64,000 nt of DNA from Meiothermus sp. (GTDB lineage Bacteria > Deinococcota > Deinococci > Deinococcales > Thermaceae), in the NCBI RefSeq assembly GCF_026004115.1, contig NZ_BPIM01000001.1, positions 1,364,001-1,428,000 on the forward strand. The letters run 5' to 3'. Under the pieces are notes generated by a model that was not told where the DNA came from, ran no database searches, and saw nothing but the letters and a program-made list of their open reading frames with translations. Of this stretch, positions 6,728 through 62,907 are shown piece by piece (positions within the stretch are counted from its first letter, which is position 1; every line of letters begins with the position of its first letter). Both the position numbers and the translations under genes were made by a program.

Positions 6728-6962
6728 ATTCCGGATTCAAAAAGATAATCATCCAAACCAAAGATCCCCCAGAGGCTATCTTTTTGAATCCTAGAGCACA
6801 CCCCCCCGAACGGTCGGCGAAAAAAGCGCCTCCCTTCCAAAGGGGCTTACGCCCTCCGCTACGCGGATAACTTCCAAAGGGCGGTATCGCCCTCCGCTAC
6901 GCGGATAACTTCGGCCCTGTTGGTTCGGCGCCGGATGGCGGCGAACTAACCGAATCTGGTAT
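6728..6962 (-). repeat. MITE-1 element, long form (copy A)
   Basis: 235-bp element with imperfect 11-bp terminal inverted repeats (ATtCCGGATTC at the left, GAATCTGGTAT at the right). It holds two tandem copies of a GTTATCCGCGTAGCGGAGGGC module. The layout matches the copy at 62675-62907 in inverted orientation; shorter copies at 9693 and 59245 lack the internal 110 bp. It fills the gap between alaS and ruvX and has no coding capacity. Confidence 0.85.
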
Positions 6963-15212: not shown

Positions 15213-15590
15213 CCCCGTTACCAAAGGCGTTACCCCCCCTTTAGCCCCCAAAAACCCCGCCGCAACCGCACCCCCTTGTGGCCCAAAGCCCACAAAAGCG
15301 CCCATCCCCACACAGTGTAAGCAACTTCCAAAAATGACCCATTATGTTTTGCGCAAAATGCTATAATGCCTTTGTCAAGCTTCTCGACAGCGCTTCTTGA
15401 AAACCAAAACGTGCGATAAAAAAGGCAAACCCGCGCTATAAAAAATCCAAAAGTGCGGATTTGTAAGCACCCATCGCAAAAACTGCCATTTTCTACCCAG
15501 TTATCCACAGCCCCCCTGTGGATAACTCGATTTTCTCATAAATACCCCCCTCCAGCCCCCTGTACAGGACGGCATTTAACGGGGTATGCT
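15213..15590 (+). promoter_or_regulatory. CRISPR leader 1
   Basis: A 378-bp non-coding stretch nearly identical to the leaders of arrays 2 and 3. It contains a perfect 12-bp palindrome TTTTGCGCAAAA (15347-15358) directly followed by extended -10 TGCTATAAT (15359-15367). Closer to the array is a 12-bp inverted repeat AGTTATCCACAG / CTGTGGATAACT (15499-15527) holding two perfect DnaA boxes. It ends directly at the first repeat. The position fits the leader where new spacers are added and the pre-crRNA starts. Confidence 0.85.
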
Positions 15591-16216
15591 GTCGCAAAAC
15601 CTTAGCCCCGAAAGGGGATTGCAACTCGAATGTAGCAGCGGCCGGGCGAGCGTGCCCGACCGCGTGTCGCAAAACCTTAGCCCCGAAAGGGGATTGCAAC
15701 GGGCGGGCAGATGCTCGCCCTGCGCCGACGCTACCAGGTCGCAAAACCTTAGCCCCGAAAGGGGATTGCAACATCTGAAGAGGTGAGGGCGGCCTCGGCT
15801 GCAGCGCGGGGGTCGCAAAACCTTAGCCCCGAAAGGGGATTGCAACAGGTTCTTTTGCTCTCGCGCTTCGACGATAGCTGGGGAAGAGTCGCAAAACCTT
15901 AGCCCCGAAAGGGGATTGCAACTATACAGCGCTGCTTGGTGTAACTAGCCAAACCTCTAATCGCAAAACCTTAGCCCCGAAAGGGGATTGCAACCATCAA
16001 ATACGGATTGCCGGCTTTACTAATACGCGGATATCGCAAAACCTTAGCCCCGAAAGGGGATTGCAACCCCGAAAATGTTTTTGAGTTTGGGTGCCATGTT
16101 TACTCCATCGCAAAACCTTAGCCCCGAAAGGGGATTGCAACCGCTTAAAGTGATGTGTACCAACCCCACCACCGCCACCGAATCGCAAAACCTTAGCCCC
16201 GAAAGGGGATTGCAAC
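15591..16216 (+). CRISPR. CRISPR array 1 (9 repeats, 8 spacers)
   Basis: 35-nt repeats begin GTCGCAAAACCTTAG and end GGGGATTGCAAC, with CCCC-GAAA-GGGG at the centre. Starts are 15591, 15666, 15738, 15812, 15888, 15960, 16033, 16107 and 16182; spacers are 36-41 nt. The final ATTGCAAC resembles the 8-nt 5' tag of type III crRNAs, so transcription is on the + strand from leader 1. Repeats 1-5 start with G, repeats 6-9 with A. Spacer 1 overlaps a spacer of array 2. Confidence 0.98.
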
Positions 16217-16307: not shown

Positions 16308-17534
16308 ATGGAAGCCCAAACCCGCAAAGTGCTCATCCTGACTGTGGGGCAGACCCTCGAGCCCCTGGAGTTCTCCCTCACCGAACACACCCCGGAGGGG
16401 GTAGTTTTTGTGGCCAGCCAGGGGAGCCAGCCGGTCGCGGGGGAGCTGGTGCGGCGCTATGGCGATGCACTGCGCTTTCATACCCTGCTTCTGGACGACC
16501 CCGAGGACATGGGCGAAATTTTCCGCAAGGCACGGGAGGCCCTGCGCAAAGCACTGGACTGGGAAGCCCAGGTGATCGTTGCCGACATTACCGGCGGCAC
16601 CAAGACCATGGCGGCGGGTGTGGTGCTGGCGCTAAGCGGGCAGGGGGTCACCTTCAGCTACGTGGGCGGCGCCAAGCGCGACGACAGGGGGCGGGTGGTG
16701 AGCGGCTCCGAGCAGATGCGCTTCCTGGAAGACCCCACCCAGCGCTACGGCCTGCGCGAGTGGGAGGGCTTCCGGCGGGCCTGGAACCAGTGCGACTACC
16801 GCGCTGCGCAGGAGTTTTTGAGCGAGCTGCTGGCCCGGCCCCTCACCCCCTCCGAGCAGCGCTTTTACCAGCACCTCAAAGGTGTGAGCGAGGCTATGCA
16901 GGACTGGGATCTCTTCCACCACAAGACAGCCTGGCAGAACCTGGAGGAACACCTCGAGCCCGCCCTGACCGTTGCCGAGGCCTGGGGGCATGGGGCCAAG
17001 GTGCGGGTGTTGCAGGCTTTGAAGGAGGCCAAAGCCCGCCTGCGCCAAATTCTGGACAAGGAAGGCAAGCCCACCCTGGCCCTGCTGGCGGACTTGCTGG
17101 CCAACGCCGAGCGGCGGGCGGCCCGGGGGCGCTTTGACGATGCCCTGGCCCGGCTGTACCGGGCCATCGAGATGGCCGTAGAGGCCGATATCCTCGAGCG
17201 CACCGGGGTGCTGCTGGATGACGAGAAGACCTTCACCGAGGCCTACGAAAAGCATCTTTCCCTTGCCAAACGCTACCAAGAAGCGTCGGGGCTGCGCGAA
17301 GCGCTCAGTGTTGCGTCGGCTTTCGATGGGGCCCTGGGAGCGACCAACACCCTGGCCCAGCGGCTCTATGCCGATTACACCGACAAAGGCCAGCTCGGCA
17401 ATCTCCTGACAGCGCGCAACCAGAGCATCCTGGCCCACGGCCATCAGCCGGTGAGCGAGGCCCACTACACCGACCTGCGGGATTATCTGCGTGGTTTTGG
17501 CCTCGAGGCCGCCCCGGCCTGGCCCAACTGGTAA
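16308..17534 (+). CDS. TIGR02710-type CRISPR-associated CARF-HEPN protein (Csm6/Csx1-like)
   Basis: 408 residues. The N-terminal Rossmann-like CARF domain opens KVLILTVGQTLEPLEFSL and has the ligand motif ADITGGTKTMAAG near residues 91-103. The helical C-terminal part ends with RNQSILAHGH (Arg370, His377), matching the HEPN Rx4-6H RNase motif. CARF-HEPN proteins of type III systems are switched on by cyclic oligoadenylate made by Cas10 and cleave RNA. This copy stands alone 91 bp after array 1, 17 kb from csm1, with its own promoter. A paralogue is encoded at 41704. Family assignment is from motifs, not a search. Confidence 0.85.
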   Translation: MEAQTRKVLILTVGQTLEPLEFSLTEHTPEGVVFVASQGSQPVAGELVRRYGDALRFHTLLLDDPEDMGEIFRKAREALRKALDWEAQVIVADITGGTKTMAAGVVLALSGQGVTFSYVGGAKRDDRGRVVSGSEQMRFLEDPTQRYGLREWEGFRRAWNQCDYRAAQEFLSELLARPLTPSEQRFYQHLKGVSEAMQDWDLFHHKTAWQNLEEHLEPALTVAEAWGHGAKVRVLQALKEAKARLRQILDKEGKPTLALLADLLANAERRAARGRFDDALARLYRAIEMAVEADILERTGVLLDDEKTFTEAYEKHLSLAKRYQEASGLREALSVASAFDGALGATNTLAQRLYADYTDKGQLGNLLTARNQSILAHGHQPVSEAHYTDLRDYLRGFGLEAAPAWPNW

Positions 17535-17604
17535 CAGGGCTTGAAGGGGCCCGGTCTTGGGTGTAGGGTGTACCTGGGGCCCGCTAGGGCTCACACAACC
17601 CGGC

Positions 17605-17745
17605 CAAGTTTTGGTGCTTGGGCGCGTAGCCCAGGCTTAAAGTGGGGAAGTCCGGTGAAAATCCGGCACTGTCGCGCAGCGGTAACGGCGCACTGGGGTG
17701 GCCCAGCCACCACCGCCCGAAGTCCGAATACCTGCCAAAACGCCC
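17605..17745 (+). ncRNA. Cobalamin riboswitch
   Basis: The core elements appear in order: TTTTGGTGCTTG, then GGGAAGTCCGGTGAAAATCC, GGCACTGTCGCGCAGCGGTAA (the B12 box region, GCCACTG form) and GAAGTCCGAATACCTGCC at the 3' side. It precedes the B12 uptake and salvage operon. CGCCCTCC just after the aptamer can pair with a nearby GGAGGGC or with the terminator arm GAGGGCG at 17827, so it probably switches transcription termination when adenosylcobalamin binds. Confidence 0.93.
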
Positions 17746-17813
17746 TCCCACCCGATACGGAGGGCACCTCTCGCAAGAAGGGGGAGTTTCGGGGAATTAC
17801 TAGTTTTTGGTAG

Positions 17814-33538: not shown

Positions 33539-33915
33539 CCCCGTTACCAAAGGCGTTACCCCCCCTTTAGCCCCCAAAAACCCCGCCGCAACCGCACCCC
33601 CTTGTGGCCCAAAGCCCACAAAAGCGCCCATTCCCACACAGTGGAAGCAACTTCCAAAAATGACCCATTATGTTTTGCGCAAAATGCTATAATGCCTTTG
33701 TCGGGCTTCTCGACGGCGCTTCTTGAAAACCAAAACGTGTGATAAAAAAGGCAAACCCGCGCTATAAAAAATCCAAAAGTGCGGATTTGTAAGCATTCAT
33801 CGCAAAAACTGCCATTTTCTACCCAGTTATCCACAGCCCCCTGTGGATAACTCGATTTTCTCATAAATACCCCCTTCCAGCCCCCTGTACAGGACGGCAT
33901 TTAACGGGGTATGCT
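33539..33915 (+). promoter_or_regulatory. CRISPR leader 2
   Basis: A near-identical copy of leader 1. Palindrome TTTTGCGCAAAA at 33673-33684, extended -10 TGCTATAAT ending 33693, and AGTTATCCACAG / CTGTGGATAACT at 33825-33852 with two DnaA boxes. The loop of that inverted repeat is one C shorter than in leader 1. Confidence 0.85.
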
Positions 33916-34551
33916 GTCGCAAAACCTTAGCCCCGAAAGGGGATTGCAACTCGGGCTGCCAAGAACAAGACCCCAGCCCCCATCCCCGCTAAGTCGCAAA
34001 ACCTTAGCCCCGAAAGGGGATTGCAACTGAGCGTGCCCGACCGCGTGAATAAGGGCCGCGGCTGCCGTCGCAAAACCTTAGCCCCGAAAGGGGATTGCAA
34101 CTTACGTCGGCAAGGACGTAAGCCCGACCAATAGGCCGGATAAGTCGCAAAACCTTAGCCCCGAAAGGGGATTGCAACCCGTACCGACCGTCAATGTAGG
34201 TAAGGCGCTCGAGAACGTGTCGCAAAACCTTAGCCCCGAAAGGGGATTGCAACTGGTAGCACGCTGATACTTCGGCTTCGGTGACGCGGGTCGCAAAACC
34301 TTAGCCCCGAAAGGGGATTGCAACGGGTCGAACATCGCCGCGGCCGGCCTTGCATGGCCGGTTGGTCGCAAAACCTTAGCCCCGAAAGGGGATTGCAACA
34401 GAATTATTATCATATTCCCTCCAAGCCCCCGCGGATAGAGGGTCGCAAAACCTTAGCCCCGAAAGGGGATTGCAACTCAGCCCTACACTGAGCGGGTTAC
34501 GGTTAGGTTTAGAAGTGTCGCAAAACCTTAGCCCCGAAAGGGGAGTGCAGC
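33916..34551 (+). CRISPR. CRISPR array 2 (9 repeats, 8 spacers)
   Basis: The same 35-nt repeat as array 1. Starts are 33916, 33993, 34067, 34144, 34219, 34290, 34365, 34442 and 34517. The last repeat is degenerate at its 3' end (GAGTGCAGC in place of GATTGCAAC), marking the leader-distal end. Spacer 2 (34028-34066) shares 18 nt with spacer 1 of array 1; spacer 6 (34325-34364) is a diverged relative of the same target. The array lies directly upstream of csm1. Confidence 0.98.
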
Positions 34552-34699
34552 TCGGAGGTTACGGGGCTTTGTGTGTGTTGAAAAATTCAACAAAAGGGGC
34601 ATTTGGACGGTGTGGAGGGTCTCGCGCGTTGAATGATGTCAACTAGCAAATGTAAAAGTAAACCGTAGTGACAAAATACCCGGCCAGTTGAAAAGCAAA

Positions 34700-34708
34700 T
34701 GCTATAAA
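34700..34708 (+). promoter_or_regulatory. Extended -10 promoter of the csm operon
   Basis: TGCTATAAA lies 9 nt before the csm1 ATG with no ribosome site. The context AAATGCTATAA is the same as in the CRISPR leader promoters (AAATGCTATAAT), but the TTTTGCGCAAAA palindrome is absent. Confidence 0.5.
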
Positions 34709-34717
34709 TCTTGCAGA

Positions 34718-37132
34718 ATGGACTCGAACACTCCAAATAAACTTGCGCTGGCAGGGCTTCTGCACGACCTGGGCAAGGTTTACCAGCGGGCTTATTGGGG
34801 GCAGCCGCCTGAAGGCATTTCGGACTGGAGCCACCCGGCCTATACCGAGTGGGCCATTCGCAAATGGAAACGGCTTTTTTCCGACAACGAATGGTTGGCC
34901 CAGACAGCAGCCCGCCACCACGAGGGCTGGCGGGAAAAGCCCCAGTGGCAGCCCCAGACTCCGGAGCAGTGGTGCGTGGCCCTGGCCGATACCTATGCCT
35001 CAAAAGAGCGTAGGGAAGTGGACGAGAAGGGTGGGCATCCTATAGCAACCCCTCTCGAGCCGGTGCTAGCAGGCTTGCGGGTGCAAGAGGCGTATGGCCA
35101 GCGGGGTTGGGGCTACAGCATGGTGCGGGCCAGCCAGGAAGTGGGCCAGAAACCGGGCGAAGCCTACCCGGAGGCAAAGCCCAACATTTCGGGCGACACC
35201 TACTGGCGGGTGGCCGAGCGGCTCGAGGCGCGTCTGGCGGAGCTGGACAAGCTCAACCTGAACCTTGGGGCTTTAGTATCTAACCTGCAGGGCATTTTTC
35301 AAGAGCTTTTGTGGAACGTGCCCTCGGACACCCAGGGTGAACCGGGCGTTTCGCTTTACGACCACCTGCGGCTAACCGGAGCCATTTCAGCGGCGCTTTG
35401 GGCTTATCACGGCGGGTCGCCGAGCATCGAAGCCCTTCGGGACGAGAACCCCGAAAAGTTCTTGCTGGTGCTGGGTGATCTGGGCGGCATCCAGAGCCAT
35501 ATTTACCGCATCCAGGGGGCCCAGACTGGGGTGGGCGGCCTTGCTAAACGGCTTCGGGCGCGCAGCCTCGAGGTCTCCCTGGCCGCTGAGGCTATGGGCC
35601 TGGAACTCCTGCGGCGCACCGGTTTGACCACTTTACAGCGCATCATGAGCGCAGGGGGCAAGTTCTACCTGCTTTTGCCCAATACCCCAGAAGTTCAGCA
35701 GGCCCTAACCGAGGTGCGCCGGGAGTGGGAAGCATGGGCCTTGCAGCAAGGAGCTACTTTGCTACCTTTCCTGGCTGCGCATGCTTTTGCCCCGGCAGGC
35801 TTCAAGGCTTTTAGCCAGGTGCTTCAGGAAGCCCACCGCAAGCTATCCGAGGCCAAGCTCAAGCCCCTGCAAAGCCGGCTCGATGACTTTTATCTGAGCA
35901 AAGGTACGCAGAGCTTGCGCCCCTGCCGGGCCTGCGGGGTGCGGCCCGCCAAGTCCGCTACCGACGAGCTCTGCTATGGCTGTGAGCGCGATGCGCACTT
36001 GGGCCGCCTGATTCCTAAGCGGCAAGAGATCGGCTTTTTCTCTCAAAACGCCCCTGAGCCCCACTACCGCTTTCCCGGCCTGCGGGTAGCGCTGAAGGGT
36101 TCCAGTGATCACACCCTGCGCACCCGCCCGGACTTCACCCCCGCTGCCCACCCCTGGGAGGTGCGGCTTCTGGCCGGGCATGTCCCCACGCTAAAAGACG
36201 CCCTGGGCGCGGGGCGTTGGTGCGATCTGAACGAGTACCAGGTTTGGGCTAAGGAACAGAAGCTCTGGGAGGAGGAGGAAGGCGGGCGCGAAGCCAGCGA
36301 CCCCCTCACCCTGGCCGAGCTGGCCGAGTTCTCTACTGGGGCAAAGTACCTGGGGGCCCTGATGCTGGACGCCGACCGCATGGGCGAGGCCTTTGCCACC
36401 GGCTTTGTGGATGAAAAGGGCCAAGACCACAGCAGCCCCAGCCGCATGGCAAGCCTTTCGCGGATGCTCGAGCTCTTCTTCGCGGGCGAGGTGCTGGAGC
36501 TGATCAAGAACCCCAAAACCTACCAGCAACGCTTGGGCTGGGACGATCTAACCGCTGGGGAAAAAGTCCGACGCTACCCCCTCATCTACTCGGTCTATGC
36601 CGGGGGCGACGACCTCTTCTTGCTGGGGCCGTGGGATGTGCTCTTGGAGTTTGCCCTGGATCTGGAAGCCCTCTACCGGCTGTTTACCCAGCACCCCAAG
36701 CTCACCCTTTCGGGCGGCTTTGTGCTGGTAAACCCCTCGCTGCCCATCCCGCTTTTGGCCGAGGCGGTGCAGGAAGCCGAGAAGGCCGCCAAAGCTGCCG
36801 GGCGCGACCGGCTCCACCTGTTCGGTCAGAGCGTGCCCTGGGCCGAGCTGCGCGGCCTGGTGGGGTGGGTGCGGGATTTCCGCAGTCATCTGCAAGCCGA
36901 GGGCAAGGAAGGCATGACCAGCGCCTTGGCCTACCGGCTGCTTCGGCTGTGGCGGCAACACCAGCAAGGCGACCCGGCCCAGCAAATGCGCTACAAGCCC
37001 TTGCTGGCCTACACCCTGCGCGAGCGGAAGGAGGAGATACGCCAGCACTACCTACGGCTAACCGACCATACCCATACAGCCTGGGCGCACCTGCCGGTGT
37101 GGGTGCAGTGGGGGCTTTATCTGGAGCGCTAA
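34718..37132 (+). CDS. cas10: Type III-A Cas10/Csm1
   Basis: 804 residues. N-terminal HD nuclease domain with LAGLLHDLGKV (His16-Asp17); first palm domain; zinc ribbon CRACGVRPAKSATDELCYGCERD near residues 405-428; second palm domain with YAGGDDLFLLG (GGDD near residue 630), the site that makes cyclic oligoadenylate from ATP; and a C-terminal helical domain. It is the large subunit of the Csm complex and is activated by target RNA. Both HD and GGDD motifs are intact. The ATG at 34718 is chosen over an upstream in-frame TTG. csm2 follows after 9 nt. Confidence 0.96.
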   Translation: MDSNTPNKLALAGLLHDLGKVYQRAYWGQPPEGISDWSHPAYTEWAIRKWKRLFSDNEWLAQTAARHHEGWREKPQWQPQTPEQWCVALADTYASKERREVDEKGGHPIATPLEPVLAGLRVQEAYGQRGWGYSMVRASQEVGQKPGEAYPEAKPNISGDTYWRVAERLEARLAELDKLNLNLGALVSNLQGIFQELLWNVPSDTQGEPGVSLYDHLRLTGAISAALWAYHGGSPSIEALRDENPEKFLLVLGDLGGIQSHIYRIQGAQTGVGGLAKRLRARSLEVSLAAEAMGLELLRRTGLTTLQRIMSAGGKFYLLLPNTPEVQQALTEVRREWEAWALQQGATLLPFLAAHAFAPAGFKAFSQVLQEAHRKLSEAKLKPLQSRLDDFYLSKGTQSLRPCRACGVRPAKSATDELCYGCERDAHLGRLIPKRQEIGFFSQNAPEPHYRFPGLRVALKGSSDHTLRTRPDFTPAAHPWEVRLLAGHVPTLKDALGAGRWCDLNEYQVWAKEQKLWEEEEGGREASDPLTLAELAEFSTGAKYLGALMLDADRMGEAFATGFVDEKGQDHSSPSRMASLSRMLELFFAGEVLELIKNPKTYQQRLGWDDLTAGEKVRRYPLIYSVYAGGDDLFLLGPWDVLLEFALDLEALYRLFTQHPKLTLSGGFVLVNPSLPIPLLAEAVQEAEKAAKAAGRDRLHLFGQSVPWAELRGLVGWVRDFRSHLQAEGKEGMTSALAYRLLRLWRQHQQGDPAQQMRYKPLLAYTLRERKEEIRQHYLRLTDHTHTAWAHLPVWVQWGLYLER

Positions 37133-37141
37133 GGAGGAGAT

Positions 37142-37624
37142 ATGGAGTTCTTTGAGAACCTGGAGAAAGGCGTTTACAGGAAGGGGCTTTTTGACGAGGA
37201 CGCCAAACGTTGGGCGCAGGAACTGAGGAACGAGGGCCAGGGTCAAGACAAACTTAAGTCGAGCCAGTTCCGTAACTATTTCCACGAGTTCCGCAGGCTC
37301 GAGGACGCCTTCGAGCGTTACAAGCGCGAGGCTGGGGGCGATGAGGCGCTGGCCTGGAGTCGGCTCACCTCCCAAATCGAGCTGCTGAGGGCAAAGTTGG
37401 CCTATGGGGGGCGCTCAAACGGCGGTCCTCTGCAAAAGCTTCCCAAGTTCCGAGAGAAGATGGACGAACTCTTATCAGATGCCAAGACAAGCCCCAAGCA
37501 CTTCGCCGTGGTCATGTTGTTTTTGGAGGCAGTATTGGCCTATTTCTATGGTCTGGAAGGAGAGCGTGGGGGCGAAGCTGCCCCCCGTAGTCCAGAGCGG
37601 CCTGCTCAGGGGAGGAGGTACTAA
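37142..37624 (+). CDS. csm2: Csm2, small subunit of the Csm complex
   Basis: 160 residues, helical and basic, with the family-typical LKSSQFRNYFHEFRRLEDAFER near residues 38-60 and FAVVMLFLEAVLAYFYG near the C-terminus. Csm2 lines the target RNA along the Csm3 backbone. Ribosome site AAGGAGGAG. The stop overlaps the csm3 start (TAATG). The last 20 residues are Pro/Arg/Glu rich and likely disordered. Confidence 0.92.
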   Translation: MEFFENLEKGVYRKGLFDEDAKRWAQELRNEGQGQDKLKSSQFRNYFHEFRRLEDAFERYKREAGGDEALAWSRLTSQIELLRAKLAYGGRSNGGPLQKLPKFREKMDELLSDAKTSPKHFAVVMLFLEAVLAYFYGLEGERGGEAAPRSPERPAQGRRY

Positions 37625-38301
37625 TGAAATTACTCGGCTACAAGCGCATCTACGGCATCATCCGGCTCAAAAGCGGGCTGCGGATTGGCATGAGCAAGGA
37701 CCAGATGGCCATCGGGGACGTGGACAACCCGGTGATCCGCAACCCCCTGACCGAGGAGCCCTACATCCCCGGTTCCTCGCTTAAGGGGAAGATGCGGTAT
37801 TTGCTCGAGTGGCACCTAGGGGGTGACTATATTTCCCGCTCGACCGAGAGAAATGTCTACGTGCCTGACGACCCGAAAGATCCGGTTGGTCGTATCTTTG
37901 GTAGCGCGCCTAGTAACGAGGCCCAGCGCCGAATTGCCCAAAAGCGCGGCCCCACCCGCCTGCTGGTGCGCGATGCCTACCTGACGCCTGAGTCCAAACG
38001 GGCCCTCGAGGCCATGACCGCCCGGGGCGGCTACCTGACCGAGGTCAAGCAGGAGGTGTTTATTCCCCGCATCGGCGGCAACGCCAACCCCCGCACCGCC
38101 GAGCGCGTGCCTGCCGGGGCCGAGTTCGCCTTCGAGATCGTCTACCGGGTGATGGACACCGGCGACGGCGGACAGACCGACCGAGAGAACTTCAAGCACG
38201 TACAAAAGGCCCTCGAGCTTCTGCAACTCGATGGGCTGGGGGGCTACATCAGCCGGGGCTATGGGCAGGTAGAACTCGACTACCGGGTTGAGGACAAATG
38301 A
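37624..38301 (+). CDS. csm3: Csm3, backbone RNase subunit of the Csm complex
   Basis: 225-residue RAMP protein. GDVDNPVIRNPLTEEPYIPGSSLKGKMRYLL carries the catalytic Asp34 (equivalent to Asp33 in well-studied Csm3) and the IPGSSLKG motif; the Gly-rich loop GLGGYISRGYGQVEL is at the C-terminus. Repeated Csm3 subunits cut target RNA at 6-nt steps. The active-site residue is intact. It overlaps csm2 and csm4. Confidence 0.96.
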   Translation: MKLLGYKRIYGIIRLKSGLRIGMSKDQMAIGDVDNPVIRNPLTEEPYIPGSSLKGKMRYLLEWHLGGDYISRSTERNVYVPDDPKDPVGRIFGSAPSNEAQRRIAQKRGPTRLLVRDAYLTPESKRALEAMTARGGYLTEVKQEVFIPRIGGNANPRTAERVPAGAEFAFEIVYRVMDTGDGGQTDRENFKHVQKALELLQLDGLGGYISRGYGQVELDYRVEDK

Positions 38302-39173
38302 GGGTCAAGGCCTTTCACCTGGCGCTAAGAAGCATCAGCGCTCCGCCGAGCGCACCCACCCTCTGGGGCCACCTGGCCTGGTGGGTGCGCTACACGCAGG
38401 GGGAAGCGGCGCTAATAGAGTGGCTCGAGGCCTTCCGTCAGGATCCACCCTTTCTCATCTCCTCGGCCTTTCCCAGGGGCTACCTGCCCCGCCCCCTGCT
38501 GCCCCAGCTCCAAGAGAGCGACACAGAACGGCGCAAAGCACTCAAGGGTATCCGCTACCTGAGCCTCGAGACCTTCGGGCAGGTGATTCAGAAAGGCGAG
38601 CAAGCCTTGCTGGAATCACCGGAACTCAAAGAGAAGAAGGCTCCCAAGGCGACCCTCGCCACCCAGACCCGGGTGGGCATCAACCGTACTACCGGCACCG
38701 CCCAGGAGGGCATCCTGTTTACCGACCAGGTGCACTGGCTGGGTGAGCGGGAATGGACGGTGTACGTGCGGCTTCGGCGAGAGGCCGACTACCTGGCGGA
38801 AGCCTTGGCGCACATCGGCACCTTTGGCTATGGTGGTAAGGCCAGCGTGGGGCTGGGGCGCTTTGAGGTGGTGGATACCCAGGAGATGGACTTACCCGAG
38901 GCCGATAACCCCACCCACTACGTCACCCTTTCCCCCACCTTGCCCAAGGGTGAGGGGTACTGGGCCCTGGAAACCTACTGGGGCCGCCTGGGGGGTCACT
39001 ACGCCCAGGCCGAGACCCCCTTCAAGCGCCCTTACCTGCGGGCCAAGGAGGGCAGCGTGTTCAAGGTGCAGCCCACAGCGGGCCTCCTGGACGTGACGCC
39101 CGAACCGGCCCCGGAAGTAGGGGTGCGGGTGTGGGAATACCTATGGGCCTTTCCATTGGGGGTGCGGGTATGA
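38298..39173 (+). CDS. csm4: Csm4, crRNA 5'-handle binding subunit
   Basis: 291-residue RAMP protein (MRVKAFHLALRSISAPPSAPTLWGHLAWWVRY; TRVGINRTTGTAQEGILFT; GTFGYGGKASVGLGRFEV). Csm4 holds the crRNA 5' tag and contacts Cas10. An ATGA overlap with csm3 and with csm5 shows tight translational coupling. Confidence 0.93.
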   Translation: MRVKAFHLALRSISAPPSAPTLWGHLAWWVRYTQGEAALIEWLEAFRQDPPFLISSAFPRGYLPRPLLPQLQESDTERRKALKGIRYLSLETFGQVIQKGEQALLESPELKEKKAPKATLATQTRVGINRTTGTAQEGILFTDQVHWLGEREWTVYVRLRREADYLAEALAHIGTFGYGGKASVGLGRFEVVDTQEMDLPEADNPTHYVTLSPTLPKGEGYWALETYWGRLGGHYAQAETPFKRPYLRAKEGSVFKVQPTAGLLDVTPEPAPEVGVRVWEYLWAFPLGVRV

Positions 39174-40300
39174 GCTTTCTGGAGAGCTACCGCTTAGAAC
39201 TCGAGACCTTGGGCCCCATTCACGTAGGCATCGGGGAGGCTTTTCCGGCCTACAGCTACCTGGTAGACGAAGCCAAGAAGGAAGCCCTGATCCTGGACGC
39301 GGGGCGGCTCTTGGAGCTTCTTTCTCCCGAGCAGCAACAGAACTACCTGCTAGCCGTGGCCCAGGGTCCCAAGCAAGCCCAAAAGAGCCTGCAGTCCCTG
39401 TGGAACAGCGGCCTGCTAGACCCTACCCCGGCCATCGTGCGCCGCCTCCCCGTGACCCCAGCCTTCATCAATACCGTCAAGAACGCTACCGACGCCGCGG
39501 GCCTGGAGTTCCGCACCCTACCCAGGAGCCCGCTGGGGGCTTACCTGCCGGGCTCGAGCCTCAAGGGGGCTTTGCGCACGGCCTGGCTGTTCAAGCGGGC
39601 AGTGCAGCAAGGGCGGGATATCGAATACAAAGGTCGCTGGCAATGGGGCCAGAAGGTTCACGGAGGCGAGTGGCCCCTCATCCAGCCGCCCGAGAGGATA
39701 TCAACCCCTGTTGCACAGGCCTTTGAGGCCCTGGTGCTGGATTACGCGACCGAGCGTAGCCCCAACCTTTACCGCGACCCCTTCCGCCAAGTGCGTGTGG
39801 GCGACAGCGAACCCAGCGAGAACCTTTTGCTCAACCGCATCGGGGTGTTCCACCCCAGGGGTCAGATGGACCAGACCGTAATCCTGGCCGAGATGTTCCG
39901 AGTGGGAACCAAGCTCCAAGTCACCCTGCGCCTGCACACCGGTTTAGCCCAGCAAAGGCACAAAGACACGGTTTCCCACGTCATTTCAGCCCAAGCGCTG
40001 GCCGAGGCTTGCCGGGAGTATTACCTCGAGGTGCTTCACCTCGAGCGAGAATACGCGCAAAATCACGGTCTTGCACAGGCGCTCAAGGTCTACGAGGCCC
40101 TGGATAAGCGGCTGAACCAGGATAGCCGCCTCTTCCCCCTGCGCATTGGCTTTGGCAGCGGGCGCATGTCCATCCGGCTGGCGCTCCTGCTCGATGGGGA
40201 GGAGGGTCAGGAGCCCAAAACCCGCAAGACCGCTGGGCACTCCAATCCCAAAGATGGCTTCCCGCTGGGCTGGGCCATTGCCAGGCTCGAGCCTTACTGA
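39170..40300 (+). CDS. csm5: Csm5, crRNA 3'-end subunit
   Basis: 376-residue RAMP protein from MSFLESYRLELETLGPIHVGIGEAFPAYSYLVD, with LGAYLPGSSLKGALRTAW in the middle and a Gly-rich C-terminal stretch (RIGFGSGRMSIRLA). Csm5 caps the 3' side of the complex and guides crRNA trimming. The ATG at 39170 overlaps the csm4 stop. A 30-nt gap with a new promoter separates it from vapB. Confidence 0.93.
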   Translation: MSFLESYRLELETLGPIHVGIGEAFPAYSYLVDEAKKEALILDAGRLLELLSPEQQQNYLLAVAQGPKQAQKSLQSLWNSGLLDPTPAIVRRLPVTPAFINTVKNATDAAGLEFRTLPRSPLGAYLPGSSLKGALRTAWLFKRAVQQGRDIEYKGRWQWGQKVHGGEWPLIQPPERISTPVAQAFEALVLDYATERSPNLYRDPFRQVRVGDSEPSENLLLNRIGVFHPRGQMDQTVILAEMFRVGTKLQVTLRLHTGLAQQRHKDTVSHVISAQALAEACREYYLEVLHLEREYAQNHGLAQALKVYEALDKRLNQDSRLFPLRIGFGSGRMSIRLALLLDGEEGQEPKTRKTAGHSNPKDGFPLGWAIARLEPY

Positions 40301-40330: not shown

Positions 40331-40585
40331 ATGGCCCTGACCGTCAAAAACCCCGAGGTCGAACGCCTGGCCGAGGAGGTAGCCCGCCTGGCGGGCGAGA
40401 CCAAGACCGAGGCCATCCGTAAGGCCCTCCTGGAGCGCAAGGCCCGGCTGGCCCGCCCCGAGCGCCCGCGCAGCGAGGTCATCGAGGAGTTTCTGCGTGA
40501 TATGCAAGACTTACTGCCCAAGGGCCGCCGTCCTACTAAAGAAGAAGAGGAAGAGATCCTGGGCTTTGGCCCGGAGGGCTACTGA
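40331..40585 (+). CDS. vapB: VapB-like antitoxin
   Basis: 84 residues: MALTVKNPEVERLAEEVARLAGETKTEAIRKALLERKARL is the PSK/VapB-type ribbon-helix-helix-like N-terminus, followed by an acidic tail (PTKEEEEEILGFGPEGY) of the kind that wraps the toxin. It lies between csm5 and cas6 and overlaps vapC by 1 nt (TGATG). It would bind its own promoter at the TATACT box together with the toxin. Confidence 0.88.
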   Translation: MALTVKNPEVERLAEEVARLAGETKTEAIRKALLERKARLARPERPRSEVIEEFLRDMQDLLPKGRRPTKEEEEEILGFGPEGY

Positions 40586-40965
40586 TGGTGCTGGACAGCT
40601 CGGTGCTGCTGCATATTCTTTTCCGCGAGCCGGGTTACCCGGAGGTTGCGCGCAAGCTGAACGGGGCTTCGCAGCTTTTGGTAGGGGCTCCAACCCTAGT
40701 CGAAACGGCCATGGTGCTGATTCATCGGGAAGGTGATACACAGTTACTTGTACTGGAAGACTTTTTGCGCCGCCTCCGGGTAGAAGTGGTGCCTTTTACC
40801 GAGGAGCATTACCATGAAGCCCTCGCGGCTTTCCGGCGCTTTGGCAAAGGCCGCCACCCCGCGGCCCTCAACTTTGGCGACTGCCTGAGCTACGCGGTGG
40901 CCAAGGTGAGCGGCCTGCCCCTGGCCTACGTGGGCGACGACTTCGCCCAGACCGACTTGTCATGA
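40585..40965 (+). CDS. vapC: VapC-like PIN-domain toxin
   Basis: 126 residues with PIN-domain acidic residues in MVLDSSVLLHILF (Asp4), LVETAMVL (Glu40), NFGDCLSYAVAK (Asp near 99) and YVGDDFAQTD (Asp 116/117), so all ligands for the metal site are present. VapC toxins cut tRNA or rRNA when VapB is lost. Its stop overlaps the cas6 ATG (ATGA), so toxin and Cas6 are translated in a coupled way. Confidence 0.9.
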   Translation: MVLDSSVLLHILFREPGYPEVARKLNGASQLLVGAPTLVETAMVLIHREGDTQLLVLEDFLRRLRVEVVPFTEEHYHEALAAFRRFGKGRHPAALNFGDCLSYAVAKVSGLPLAYVGDDFAQTDLS

Positions 40966-41765
40966 TACTCGCGGCCCTCGTCCTCCCCTTAGAAGGCCCC
41001 GCCCGCCCCGACCCCGACGGCTGGCGCGGCCTGGTGTACGGCATGCTCAAGGAAATAGACCCCGAACTGCACGCGGCTCAGTCTAACCCTTTTAGCCTGG
41101 GGCTTGGTGGGGCCGAGGGGCAGTGGTGGGTGCGGATTGGCCTTCTGGATGAGGGGCTGTATGCCCGCCTCTCGCCCCGCTTGTTTGGCCTGGTGGGTCA
41201 GAGCGTCAAGGTGAAGGCGCCCTTCAGGGTCCAGGCTGTGTTGCAGGAAGAGCACCCCTGGGCCGGCGTGAGCACCTATTCCCGGCTTTTCCAGGGGCAG
41301 GCTTCGGCCAGCCTGGGCCTGCACTTTGCCAGCCCCACCTTCTTCCGCCGCAAGGGAAACAGCTACCCTCTGCCTGAGCCTAAGCTGGTCTTCGACTCGC
41401 TCACCCAGCGCTGGAACGCCTTTGCCCCGGTCAAAGTACCCCCCGAACTGGCCGAAACCTGGGAGCGGGCGACCATCACCCGCTTCCAGGGCCACACCCA
41501 GGCCATCCGGCCCAACCCGGACGAACGGGGGGTGGGTTTTGTGGGCCGGGTGGTGTACCACCTGCCCGCTGCCAAGCCCACCGAGGCCCAGTGGATGCAG
41601 GCTTTGGGGCGGTTTGCTTTTTATGCCGGGGTGGGGGCCAAGACCAGCCTGGGGTTTGGGCGGGTACGGGGGTTTGATCCCATGCGGAAGGAGAAATCTG
41701 CCAATGGAAGACTTGAAGCAGAAGATTCATCAAGTTTGGCAACACCTCAAGACCCAGGAGCTTGA
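40962..41765 (+). CDS. cas6: CRISPR endoribonuclease Cas6
   Basis: 267 residues: two ferredoxin-like folds, with a possible catalytic His37 in PELHAAQSNPFSLG and the C-terminal glycine-rich loop YAGVGAKTSLGFGRVRGF. Cas6 cuts pre-crRNA within repeats, leaving the 8-nt ATTGCAAC tag. It starts inside the vapC stop and overlaps the following CARF gene by 62 nt, a long overlap that again points to coupled translation. Confidence 0.93.
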   Translation: MILAALVLPLEGPARPDPDGWRGLVYGMLKEIDPELHAAQSNPFSLGLGGAEGQWWVRIGLLDEGLYARLSPRLFGLVGQSVKVKAPFRVQAVLQEEHPWAGVSTYSRLFQGQASASLGLHFASPTFFRRKGNSYPLPEPKLVFDSLTQRWNAFAPVKVPPELAETWERATITRFQGHTQAIRPNPDERGVGFVGRVVYHLPAAKPTEAQWMQALGRFAFYAGVGAKTSLGFGRVRGFDPMRKEKSANGRLEAEDSSSLATPQDPGA

Positions 41766-43104
41766 AGGCGCAAAGGCGCAGCATTTTTACAACCAAAATA
41801 TCTGGCCGTTGTTGCTCGATCTCTGGCGGCAGGAGCCCCAGGTACACCCTTTTCGGGAGAACTTCGATGTATCCATCCACACCCTGGGCACCAGTCCGGA
41901 AGCCACCACCCTGGCCGCTTTGGGTCTGGGCGCTTCAGAGGTGTACGTTTTGCACACCCCAGAGAGCAAGCACTACCTAGCTCAGCTTCAGAAAGACCTG
42001 GGCCGCGAGATCTACCCTATCCAGATAGGTAAAAGCGATGTTACCCGGCTCTACCAGGCAGTCGGCGAGCAAGTACGCCAGCATCCGGGCAAAAAAATTG
42101 CCCTGGACCTCACCAGTGGTACCAAGGCCATGAGCGCAGGGATGGCCGCAGCGGGTTACTTCTTGCAAAGGGTGCACCCCAGTTTGCGGGTGGCTTATGT
42201 GGATAACGATGACTTCGATGCGATTTTGCGTAAACCAGTAGCCGGCACCGAGAAACTGATTCTGCTGCCCAACCCCCACGAGGTACTGGGCGACCTTGAC
42301 GAGCACCTGGCTCAGGAGTTTTACAAAGCGCGGGAGTTCGGCAAGGCCGCCGACCGCTACAACGAACTTCGCCGAAAGACCGGTCAGGGCGGCTTTGAGG
42401 TGTATGCAGCGCTGTGCGATATGTACCAGCGGTGGTACGCCTTGGACTTTGAGGGCGCGCTGAGCAATGCGGAGCGCCTGTTGAAATTTTTGAGCCAGGA
42501 TGCTTACCGCAATCATCCGCTAAACCTTCGCGCCAAACGCATAAAAGAGCAGAAAGAAGGCCTCGAGGGCATCGTTAGTCTGCTTGAGTCGCAAAGTTTT
42601 ACCGAGAAAAAGGACATTCTTTGGTTGACTGCAACGCTGCTACAACTGGGTGATGAGCGCAAAGAACGGCAGCCGGTCTTGGCGGCGCTCTACTTTTATC
42701 GGGCCCTCGAGCTCATCTTGCAGCACCGTATTGCTGTTAACGGCAGAAGCAACGACAATCCAGTACTGACCCCCGAGGAGCAAGACCACCTGCGCCAAAG
42801 CCTGGCCAGATGGCTGAAAAAATCTTTGGAGGAGATAAAGCCCATCAAAAAGTTGGGTTTGCTAGAGAGTATGGCCCTATTGCGTTATTTGGAAGACCCC
42901 CTACTTGATAATTTCTCCGAAAATGATTTGCAGGGCTACCAAGGGATGTTGCAAAGCCGCAACAAAAGCCTTCTCATCCATGGTCTCGAGGTGAGCAAAA
43001 AAGGCGATGTGGAAAAACTTCAGCAGTTTGCGCGAAAGCTGTACCTAACCACACGCGAAGAGGCCAAGCTGGCGTTGTCGGTTGAACCGGTAGAGCTGAT
43101 GTGA
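41704..43104 (+). CDS. TIGR02710-type CARF-HEPN protein, second copy
   Basis: 466 residues from MEDLKQKIHQVWQHLKTQELEG. CARF domain with the nucleotide-loop motif ALDLTSGTKAMSAGMAAAG near residues 133-151; HEPN-like C-terminus with LQSRNKSLLIHG (Arg419, His426), matching Rx4-6H. It is probably a cyclic-oligoadenylate-activated RNase working downstream of Cas10. It differs clearly from the array-1 paralogue but shares the same order of motifs. The start at 41704 is the ATG after GGAGAAATC. Its stop overlaps the cas1 GTG. Confidence 0.87.
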   Translation: MEDLKQKIHQVWQHLKTQELEGAKAQHFYNQNIWPLLLDLWRQEPQVHPFRENFDVSIHTLGTSPEATTLAALGLGASEVYVLHTPESKHYLAQLQKDLGREIYPIQIGKSDVTRLYQAVGEQVRQHPGKKIALDLTSGTKAMSAGMAAAGYFLQRVHPSLRVAYVDNDDFDAILRKPVAGTEKLILLPNPHEVLGDLDEHLAQEFYKAREFGKAADRYNELRRKTGQGGFEVYAALCDMYQRWYALDFEGALSNAERLLKFLSQDAYRNHPLNLRAKRIKEQKEGLEGIVSLLESQSFTEKKDILWLTATLLQLGDERKERQPVLAALYFYRALELILQHRIAVNGRSNDNPVLTPEEQDHLRQSLARWLKKSLEEIKPIKKLGLLESMALLRYLEDPLLDNFSENDLQGYQGMLQSRNKSLLIHGLEVSKKGDVEKLQQFARKLYLTTREEAKLALSVEPVELM

Positions 43105-43684
43105 CCCTCCACCTCACCGAGCAGTCGGCTACCCTGCGCCTACGCCAGGGCCGCTTGATGGTGGATCTCGACGGACAAACGCTGGCCCAGCTCCCCGCCC
43201 GTAAGGTGCGGGGGGTGGTGGTCTGGGGCAACGTGCGGCTCACCACCCTACCGATGCCGTGAACGCAGCGCTTTCGTATGGCTACATGGTTTTGTTGGGC
43301 CGCGTCCTGCTGGCCTTGCACCTGGCGGGCCTGCACCCCGAGCTGGGCCTTTTGCATGCCGAGGGCCGCCGCGCCCCTGCCCTGGCCTTCGATCTGATGG
43401 AGGAGTTTCGCGTGCCGGTGGTGGATGCTGTGGTGGTGGGGGCCTTTTTGCGCGCCGAGCTAACCCCCGAAAAGCACAGCGAAGCCCGCAATGGCGGGGT
43501 ATACCTCAACGATGCCGGTCGCAAAACCTTGCTGCGCCTGCTGGAGACCCGCTTTGCCCAGGAGGCCCAGCACCCCAAGGGTTTTCGTAAACCCTACCAG
43601 CAACTCATCGAGACCCAGGCTGCCCGGCTCAAGGCGGCCATCCTGGATCGCGCTACCTACACGCCCTTCTACCTGTGGAGATAA
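43101..43684 (+). pseudogene. cas1: Cas1 with internal deletion and frameshift
   Basis: The N-terminal piece (GTG 43101: TLHLTEQSATLRLRQGRLMVDL to VVVWGNVRLTT) ends at a TGA at 43260-43262. The C-terminal piece resumes in another frame as TDAVNAALSYGYMVLLGRVLLALHLAG, LGLLHAEGRRAPALAFDLMEEFRVPV and ends KAAILDRATYTPFYLWR. About 190 codons remain of the usual 320-330. The lost middle should carry the conserved Glu metal ligand (the xEGxxAxxYF region); the His and Asp ligands remain in the C-terminal piece. It cannot make a working integrase. The junction is at about 43244-43256. Confidence 0.92.
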
Positions 43685-43685
43685 T

Positions 43686-43964
43686 ATGCCCACCGACTCG
43701 CACTTTTTCACCATTACCTACGACATCCCCGACGATGGCCGCCGGGTTAAGGTGGCCAACACCCTCAAAAGTTTTGGCGAGCGGGTACAGCTTTCGGTAT
43801 TCGAGTGCTGGCTGAGCCCGGCCCAACTTGCCGAACTAAAGAAGCTGCTGCAAAAGAAAGCGAAGCTCTCCCAGGACAGCATCCGCATCTACCCCATTGG
43901 GGGCACGGTAGAGGTACTGGGCACGGGCCAAATCGCTGAAGACCCCGACTTCCTGATTCTCTAG
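43686..43964 (+). CDS. cas2: Cas2
   Basis: 92 residues with the ferredoxin-like start FFTITYDIPDDGRRVKVANTLKSFGERVQLSVFECWLS, including the conserved Asp after the first strand, and the IRIYPIGG strand. Cas2 bridges Cas1 dimers for spacer integration. It looks intact, but its partner just upstream is broken. The ATG at 43686 lies 1 nt after the cas1 stop. Confidence 0.95.
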   Translation: MPTDSHFFTITYDIPDDGRRVKVANTLKSFGERVQLSVFECWLSPAQLAELKKLLQKKAKLSQDSIRIYPIGGTVEVLGTGQIAEDPDFLIL

Positions 43965-44009: not shown

Positions 44010-44343
44010 CCGCCGCAACCGCACCCCCTTGTGGCCCAAAGCCCACAAAATCGCCCATCCCCACACAGTGGAAGCAACTTCCAAAAATGACCCATTATGT
44101 TTTGCGCAAAATGCTATAATACCTTTGTCGGGCTTCTCGACGGCGCTTCTTGAAAACCAAAACGTGCGATAAAAAAGGCAAACCCGCGCTATAAAAAATC
44201 CAAAAGTGCGGATTTGTAAGCACCCATCGCAAAAACTACCATTTTCTACCCAGTTATCCACAACCCCCCTGTGGATAACTCGATTTTCTCATAAATACCC
44301 CCCTCCAGCCCCCTGTACAGGACGGCATTTAACGGGGTATGCT
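44010..44343 (+). promoter_or_regulatory. CRISPR leader 3
   Basis: Nearly identical to leaders 1 and 2 from about 44014 on, diverging at its far end. Palindrome TTTTGCGCAAAA at 44100-44111, TGCTATAAT ending 44120, DnaA boxes TTATCCACA (44254-44262) and TGTGGATAA (44270-44278). One base next to the left box differs (CACAA for CACAG), outside the 9-bp box. Confidence 0.85.
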
Positions 44344-45479
44344 GTCGCAAAACCTTAGCCCCGAAAGGGGATTGCAACCAGGCGAGGAAGGCGGCGGTAA
44401 AGCCTAGAAAAAACCAAGTCGCAAAACCTTAGCCCCGAAAGGGGATTGCAACATAAAAAAAGAAGATATAGAATATTTTGCAGATTTTGTGTCGCAAAAC
44501 CTTAGCCCCGAAAGGGGATTGCAACGGCCTCAAAATAGGGCGCTGGCTGCCGTCCTTGCCAAGTCGCAAAACCTTAGCCCCGAAAGGGGATTGCAACTTT
44601 CTTTCATCCGCCGAGCCAGGGCCTCGGCGGCCCCCCCGGTCGCAAAACCTTAGCCCCGAAAGGGGATTGCAACTCACGGGTAGAGCTTTTGGTTTCGCGG
44701 CGGCGGGTGTAGTCGCAAAACCTTAGCCCCGAAAGGGGATTGCAACACTTCTACATCACGTATACCCAACGTGACTTTAGGGCTATGTCGCAAAACCTTA
44801 GCCCCGAAAGGGGATTGCAACTCCAGAGCAGCCGGGGGCAGCCATGAGCGGTCAACCAATGTCGCAAAACCTTAGCCCCGAAAGGGGATTGCAACCTCGC
44901 CCAAGCGTGGGTACTTGGCCATGAACTCCTCCAGTCGCAAAACCTTAGCCCCGAAAGGGGATTGCAACCCGGAGGACTACCTGCCCATCCACAGCTGGTT
45001 TGATGCTTGTCGCAAAACCTTAGCCCCGAAAGGGGATTGCAACCTTGACGTCACTAGTGACGTGCACGCCGTCACCCAAAAGTCGCAAAACCTTAGCCCC
45101 GAAAGGGGATTGCAACAGTGGTGTACAGGTGTACGCACCCCATGATTGGCAACGTGTCGCAAAACCTTAGCCCCGAAAGGGGATTGCAACACGTTGCTAC
45201 CGAAATGCAATAGAAATTGACAAAGTCGCAAAACCTTAGCCCCGAAAGGGGATTGCAACTTCAGGTCCCCGTCGTTGGCCTGGGCAGCCTCGAACCGGTC
45301 GCAAAACCTTAGCCCCGAAAGGGGATTGCAACTACAGGCCAGCAAACCCGAGGCAGTGAACGAGCTATGTCGCAAAACCTTAGCCCCGAAAGGGGATTGC
45401 AACCCTCTGGGGGAGAAGAAGGATCCTTAGCCGCATCGTACCGTGTCGCAAAACCTTAGCCCCGAAAGGGGATTGCAAT
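44344..45479 (+). CRISPR. CRISPR array 3 (16 repeats, 15 spacers)
   Basis: The same 35-nt repeat. Starts are 44344, 44418, 44491, 44563, 44639, 44712, 44787, 44861, 44934, 45009, 45082, 45156, 45225, 45298, 45369 and 45445. The last repeat ends ATTGCAAT instead of ATTGCAAC. Spacers are about 34-41 nt; spacer 2 is very A/T rich, unlike the rest. It follows cas2 and its leader. Confidence 0.98.
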
Positions 45480-62674: not shown

Positions 62675-62907
62675 ATACCAGATTCGGTTAGTTCGCCACC
62701 CTTCGGTGACGAACTAACAGGGCCGAAGTTATCCGCGTAGCGGAGGGCGATACCGCCCCTTGGAAGTTATCCGCGTAGCGGAGGGCGTAAGCCCCTTTGG
62801 AAGGGAGACGCTTTTTTCGCCGACCGTTCGGGAGGGGTGTGCTCTAGGATTCAAAAAGACAACCTATGGGATTTTGGTCTTTTGAACTGTCTTTTTGAAT
62901 CCGGTAT
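62675..62907 (+). repeat. MITE-1 element, long form (copy D)
   Basis: 233 bp with ends ATACCAGATTC / GAATCCGGTAT and two tandem GTTATCCGCGTAGCGGAGGGC modules, the inverted counterpart of copy A at 6728. It ends 8 bp before the fabI stop codon, so it lies in the 3' region of fabI. Confidence 0.85.

Follow-up and report, generated by a model that had tools for sequence, protein, structure and literature searches.

A candidate DnaA operator in the type III-A CRISPR leaders of Meiothermus and related genera

The leaders of type III-A CRISPR arrays in Meiothermus and its relatives contain two 9-bp DnaA boxes that face each other across 6 or 7 nt, and comparison of these leaders among genomes makes it fairly likely that the pair is a DnaA operator built into the leader of this group. 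We analyzed a 64,000-nucleotide stretch of a Meiothermus genome (hereafter, the window), for which an earlier note had claimed facing perfect boxes in each of three CRISPR leaders. The arrangement TTATCCACA-N6/7-TGTGGATAA was indeed found in all three III-A leaders of the window, and its coordinates were confirmed (Table 1). The note had also placed the only nearby change in leader 3 just outside a 9-mer, and this too was correct: an A replaces a G at 44263, at the inside edge of the loop, at the cost of one stem pair but without altering either 9-mer. The window contained seven perfect boxes, compared with 0.14 expected from shuffled sequences. Moreover, in the 3.35-Mb genome facing pairs with a gap of 4–9 nt occurred three times, each time in one of these III-A leaders, and a reversed-control motif yielded no such pair in the same genome. 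Because the three leaders of the window are near-identical paralogues, they represent one origin rather than three independent ones, and the real evidence for the box pair comes from other species. (The seventh perfect box, at 42198 on the minus strand, falls within a CARF-HEPN gene and is unrelated to the leader pairs.)

Table 1. Positions of leader elements, repeats and cas genes, counted from the first nucleotide of the window.
Feature	Position	Strand	Basis or remark
Extended -10 TGCTATAAT, putative leader promoter	15359..15367	+	alignment; start inferred
Start of presumed leader RNA: 5′ hairpin	15374..15388	+	compensatory changes across species
DnaA box 1, leader 1 (TTATCCACA)	15501..15509	+	0 changes, 9 columns, 36 aligned leaders
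DnaA box 2, leader 1 (TTATCCACA on minus strand)	15517..15525	-	2 changes in 9 columns
TCTCATAAA	15534..15542	+	9-column stretch with no change; 8 bp past box 2
First CRISPR repeat, array 1	15591..15625	+	65 nt past box 2
DnaA box 1, leader 2	33827..33835	+	perfect match
DnaA box 2, leader 2 (6-nt loop)	33842..33850	-	perfect match
First CRISPR repeat, array 2	33916..33950	+	
cas10/csm1, csm2, csm3, csm4, csm5 (type III-A), after array 2	34688..40300	+	NCBIfam/Pfam
cas6	40962..41765	+	NCBIfam/Pfam
Reading frame with cas2 (domain in 3′ part), directly before leader 3	43491..43964	+	domain match
DnaA box 1, leader 3	44254..44262	+	perfect match
DnaA box 2, leader 3	44270..44278	-	perfect match
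First CRISPR repeat, array 3	44344..44378	+	

The locus around the arrays is of type III-A and comprises cas10/csm1–csm5, cas6, CARF-HEPN (Csm6-like) genes and cas2. Two Csm6-type HEPN genes lie at 16308–17534 and 41326–43104, a PIN-domain gene of the III-A operon at 40585–40965 and a cobalamin riboswitch at 17595–17753. A cas1 remnant at 43107–43546 covers Pfam positions 1–47 and 177–282 only, similar to fragments of cas1 that, in Thermus, were reported to precede inactive type III arrays (PMC7515739), and an intact cas1 (G000:C1:3219198) is found beside a different repeat type. Tandem pairs of a 37–38 bp unit (6834–6912 and 62725–62803), mutually inverted, flank the CRISPR region.

Conservation and distribution of the box pair

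We searched for the leader in 50 genomes of the family, read out the matches and aligned them. The alignment comprised 38 leaders and spanned 17 genomes in three genera (g1–g3, comprising Meiothermus and relatives). In 36 of the 38 leaders the 9-mers on both arms were perfect DnaA boxes, matching the DnaA-site consensus TTATNCACA, with the remaining two having one substitution each (TTATTCACA in genome G006, which still fits the consensus, and TTATCCACC in G002). By parsimony, on a tree built from the leader minus the boxes and loop, box 1 had changed 0 times, box 2 twice and the 7-nt loop 32 times, and the other 295 leader columns had a mean of 3.25 changes per column; none of 100,000 random draws of 18 columns was as conserved as the two boxes. 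The edges of this constraint coincided with the ends of the 9-mers, beyond which the first bases varied freely. Loop length switched between 7 and 6 nt in separate lineages with the boxes unchanged.

Whether related leaders would keep the 9-bp boxes or the pairing alone had been the deciding comparison of the earlier note, and it came out on the side of the boxes. Across the 38 leaders, no compensatory change was found in the nine pairs of the box stem, each of the two substitutions broke the pairing without compensation, and the stem pairs flanking the boxes, at -1 and -2, were unpaired in eight leaders each. The box palindrome is thus conserved as sequence and not as pairing.

The same leaders provided an internal contrast, as a second hairpin, of 5–6 bp and located 6 nt past the extended -10, did covary across Meiothermus-like and Thermus leaders, with the compensatory stems GTCGAG/TTCGAC, GTTGGG/CCCAAT and GCCGGG/CCCGGC; conserved RNA pairing therefore looks different from what was seen at the boxes. 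On its own, this 5′ hairpin of leader 1 folded no better than shuffled sequences (z +0.88), and its support is the cross-species covariation only. Together, TGCTATAAT and the covarying hairpin, which are present in all three leaders of the window, probably mark where the leader RNA begins, at a conserved 5′ end, and a conserved CTTGAAA comes next. A sigma-70 scan returned no promoter with a -35 element, such that the promoter reading derives from the conserved extended -10, and the transcription start was placed by this element and the covarying hairpin only. Just before the -10, at 15347–15358, is a palindrome, TTTTGCGCAAAA, which hardly varies among Meiothermus-like leaders, is missing from those of Thermus, and is possibly an activator site.

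The position of the pair within the leader was nearly fixed. The distance from the extended -10 to box 1 was 133 bp (range 132–134), that from box 2 to the first repeat was 65 nt (66 in two leaders), and that from box 2 to TCTCATAAA, which apart from box 1 is the only unchanged 9-column stretch and is mostly retained in Thermus, was 8 bp in all leaders measured. With the promoter-side and repeat-side distances both rigid, spacing fails to separate control of transcription from control of integration.

We also searched for leaders independently of the boxes, using a profile that began just past box 2 and ended with the first repeat, and applying it to 111 genomes of the class. This profile recovered 37 full-length intact leaders in g1–g3, and all 37 carried the pair. 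Two relic leaders (L274 and L275, on contig 24 of G021), each with one repeat and lacking an array, had lost both the boxes and TCTCATAAA. Conversely, when perfect pairs with a 6–7 nt gap were collected from the 50 genomes of the family, all 36 proved to be in leaders of one repeat family.

The distribution also has limits. The homologous leaders of g4 (Thermus by inference) and g5 had no DnaA box within one mismatch (38 leaders from 22 genomes), and the box slot of Thermus leaders L276–L313 holds TTATnCGcC-N7-TATTCCAag, ~34 nt before TCTCA. The genome has arrays of two further CRISPR types, and no box pair was found beside them; among 80 sampled loci with the pair from a genome collection, none outside Meiothermus adjoined an array, the only known leaders being two from Meiothermus. 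(One chance three-copy repeat, in L163, lies 1.7 kb from the pair.) The box pair is thus neither universal for this leader family nor general to CRISPR leaders, and its absence from Thermus leaders of the same family indicates that basic leader function does not depend on it. Of what the earlier note had proposed, the identity of the 9-mers as DnaA boxes stood, the 9-mers being kept and a facing pair being found also at the dnaA promoter, and the suggested link of spacer acquisition or array transcription to replication is a reasonable hypothesis.

DnaA boxes at oriC and upstream of dnaA

The genome encodes a complete DnaA of 450 amino acids (E 2.6e-138 to 8btg), the domain IV of which matches 1j1v and contains the box-reading GRDHTT motif. 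TTATCCACA occurs 45 times in the genome, compared with five times for the reversed control, and the oriC, between dnaN and dnaA, has eight perfect boxes, most of which have the same 3′ G as the leader boxes. Direct double boxes 2–3 nt apart are present elsewhere in the genome.

When we listed facing pairs of perfect boxes with gaps of 0–30 nt in 18 genomes of the genus, 31 of the 44 fell in CRISPR leaders, 10 in dnaA promoters and three elsewhere. Six of the dnaA-promoter assignments were confirmed by tblastn or gene reading and four (in G007, G009, G010 and G018) were placed by their distance from oriC; tblastn ruled out two further 14–15 nt pairs, on C40 of G006 and C114 of G012, as dnaA promoters. 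That 41 of the 44 pairs were in leaders or dnaA promoters points to a DnaA operator, and the leaders would then share a layout that is otherwise characteristic of dnaA, a gene presumed to be under autoregulation by DnaA. The gap differed between the two settings, at 6–7 nt in leader pairs versus 14–15 nt in dnaA-promoter pairs.

In the genome studied, facing boxes 14 nt apart lie directly upstream of dnaA (G000:C1:1310073-1310104; L314:2474-2505). This pair, which is kept in ten genomes of the genus, is probably an autoregulatory operator. Intergenic clusters of three perfect boxes at G000:C1:1192649-1192690 and G000:C1:1455368-1455399 may likewise be DnaA targets or titration sites, and a cluster arranged like the former recurs in many species of the genus.

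Possible roles of the pair in the leader

These observations make it likely that DnaA binds both boxes. A less secure proposal is what binding would do. Given that the presumed leader transcript reaches the pair after ~130 bp, the likeliest effect of bound DnaA would be to throttle transcription of the pre-crRNA, either as a road-block or by promoter-proximal repression. The supply of crRNA would then track how much DnaA there is, or its ATP-state, and through this the initiation of replication, in the way expected of dnaA expression itself. We put this coupling of crRNA supply to DnaA at somewhat under an even chance. Control of transcription is favored by the location of the boxes in the presumed transcript, by the road-blocking that DnaA has been reported to cause within transcribed regions of E. 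coli (PMC11317965), and by Thermus arrays working without the boxes. Thermus type III arrays are both transcribed and able to acquire spacers (PMC7515739), yet no boxes occur in the Thermus leaders that we read, which makes the element look like a regulatory addition.

The next most likely use, although a doubtful one in our estimation, would lie in spacer integration, with the pair as an architectural site for a host factor; DnaA, or the bend that it introduces, would shape the leader for Cas1–Cas2 at the first repeat, as IHF does in type I-E systems, and acquisition would be tied to the DnaA cycle. The fixed distances to the repeat and to TCTCATAAA, the high conservation throughout the region from the boxes to the repeat, and the joint loss of boxes and TCTCATAAA from the two array-less relics are all consistent with this idea, as is the report that Cas1–Cas2 foci need ongoing replication initiation in E. 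coli dnaA46 cells (PMC13244154). However, the promoter-side distance is about equally rigid (133 ± 1 bp), so that spacing does not single out integration, the spacer acquisition by Thermus arrays would proceed with box-less leaders, and the cas1 beside leader 3 is internally deleted, with the intact copy 1.8 Mb away and associated with another repeat type. A structural explanation, in which the element acts as a hairpin in RNA (in the leader RNA it might be an attenuator or a terminator) or as a DNA cruciform and resembles DnaA boxes only secondarily, seems improbable. The plus strand does fold into a stem of 11–12 bp (-14.5 to -17.2 kcal/mol, z -6 to -8), and a scan called one leader of the window terminator-like, with TTTT after the stem; facing identical boxes are also necessarily able to pair. 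However, neither the uncompensated changes in the box stem nor its contrast with the covarying 5′ hairpin fits this explanation. The T tract is not conserved (with tails such as TGGTAGTTCTC and CAGCAGCTCTC), and we rejected an intrinsic terminator as a mechanical scan match only. The box hairpin may still be stable as an RNA stem, as a side effect.

Dimeric helix-turn-helix regulators typically bind facing half-sites whose separation is constant, and the different conserved sequence in the Thermus slot looks as if different proteins had used that slot, as would be expected if some other dimeric regulator, with a half-site coinciding with the DnaA box, bound the palindrome. We regard this as quite improbable, given that the constraint stops at the 9-mer edges and that the same 9-mer with its 3′ G is the oriC box of these genomes; in addition, the loop differs by 1 bp in separate lineages with the boxes kept, as is easier to reconcile with two monomers that bind separately than with a rigid dimer. 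The leaders are 69–100 kb from oriC in the genome studied, and a leader of this family is 11–22 kb from dnaA/oriC in each of G005, G009, G017, G018 and G021, as might be the case for titration or DnaA-recycling sites (datA- or DARS-like) that happen to sit in leaders. Each leader, however, contributes two boxes compared with the eight perfect ones at oriC, leaders distant from oriC carry boxes equally, and the pair is tied to leaders of one repeat family only, which together leave such a role very improbable indeed.

If DnaA does bind, the leader pair would differ from its E. coli sites in geometry as well as setting. Like the DnaA-regulated promoters of E. coli (nrdA, dnaA, rpoH and mioC; PMC11317965), these leaders have paired perfect TTATCCACA near a promoter, and the dnaA promoter of the genome studied also has a facing pair. 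Nonetheless, the target here is a CRISPR leader, the sites are putative, and the boxes, facing and 6–7 nt apart, depart both from the direct double boxes 2–3 bp apart that E. coli DnaA favors (PMC11317965) and from the 14–15 nt gap at dnaA. In E. coli, 19 of 32 single perfect boxes were unbound by DnaA (PMC11317965). Control of array expression within the leader, past the promoter, has a counterpart in the Rho/PhrS system of the P. aeruginosa CRISPR2 leader (PMC6700203), although that system is RNA-based and Rho-dependent and has no DnaA boxes. The Thermus type III leaders (PMC7515739) are homologous to those described here, sharing the promoter element, 5′ hairpin, CTTGAAA, TCTCAnAAA and repeat, and differ in the conserved sequence that occupies the box-pair slot.

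A phased leader site for a host chromosomal DNA-binding protein is also known from the IHF sites of type I-E and I-F leaders; the site here is a DnaA box, farther from the repeat (-66 to -90) and in a type III-A system, and any role in integration would be hypothetical. In the A-site of the R6K ABC-primosome, a DnaA box lies within a hairpin stem, and the boxes described here could likewise form one, yet we saw no sign of a single-stranded leader or of helicase loading. Besides Cas proteins and general transcription regulators, nucleoid proteins, IHF among them, are known to act at leaders. DnaA regulation and leader host factors are both familiar. The presence of a conserved DnaA operator within a CRISPR leader seems to be undescribed in the open-access literature, where we found no earlier report linking DnaA to such a leader.

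DnaA might then be a built-in host factor of the leader, with its ATP/ADP state gating crRNA supply or spacer integration and coupling CRISPR memory to replication, a possibility that we hold tentatively, at slightly less than even. If it is true, Thermus either replaced DnaA control in the same leader slot or never gained it, and the contrast between Meiothermus and Thermus at this one slot is testable by swapping a few bases. A conserved DnaA site would bear on the timing of both spacer acquisition and crRNA output relative to replication. The near-constancy of exact 9-base sites over 17 genomes, while their surroundings changed, suggests that CRISPR memory or its expression may be tied to the replication cycle, and a conserved initiator site in the leader would connect CRISPR immunity to the cell cycle directly, at the molecular level.
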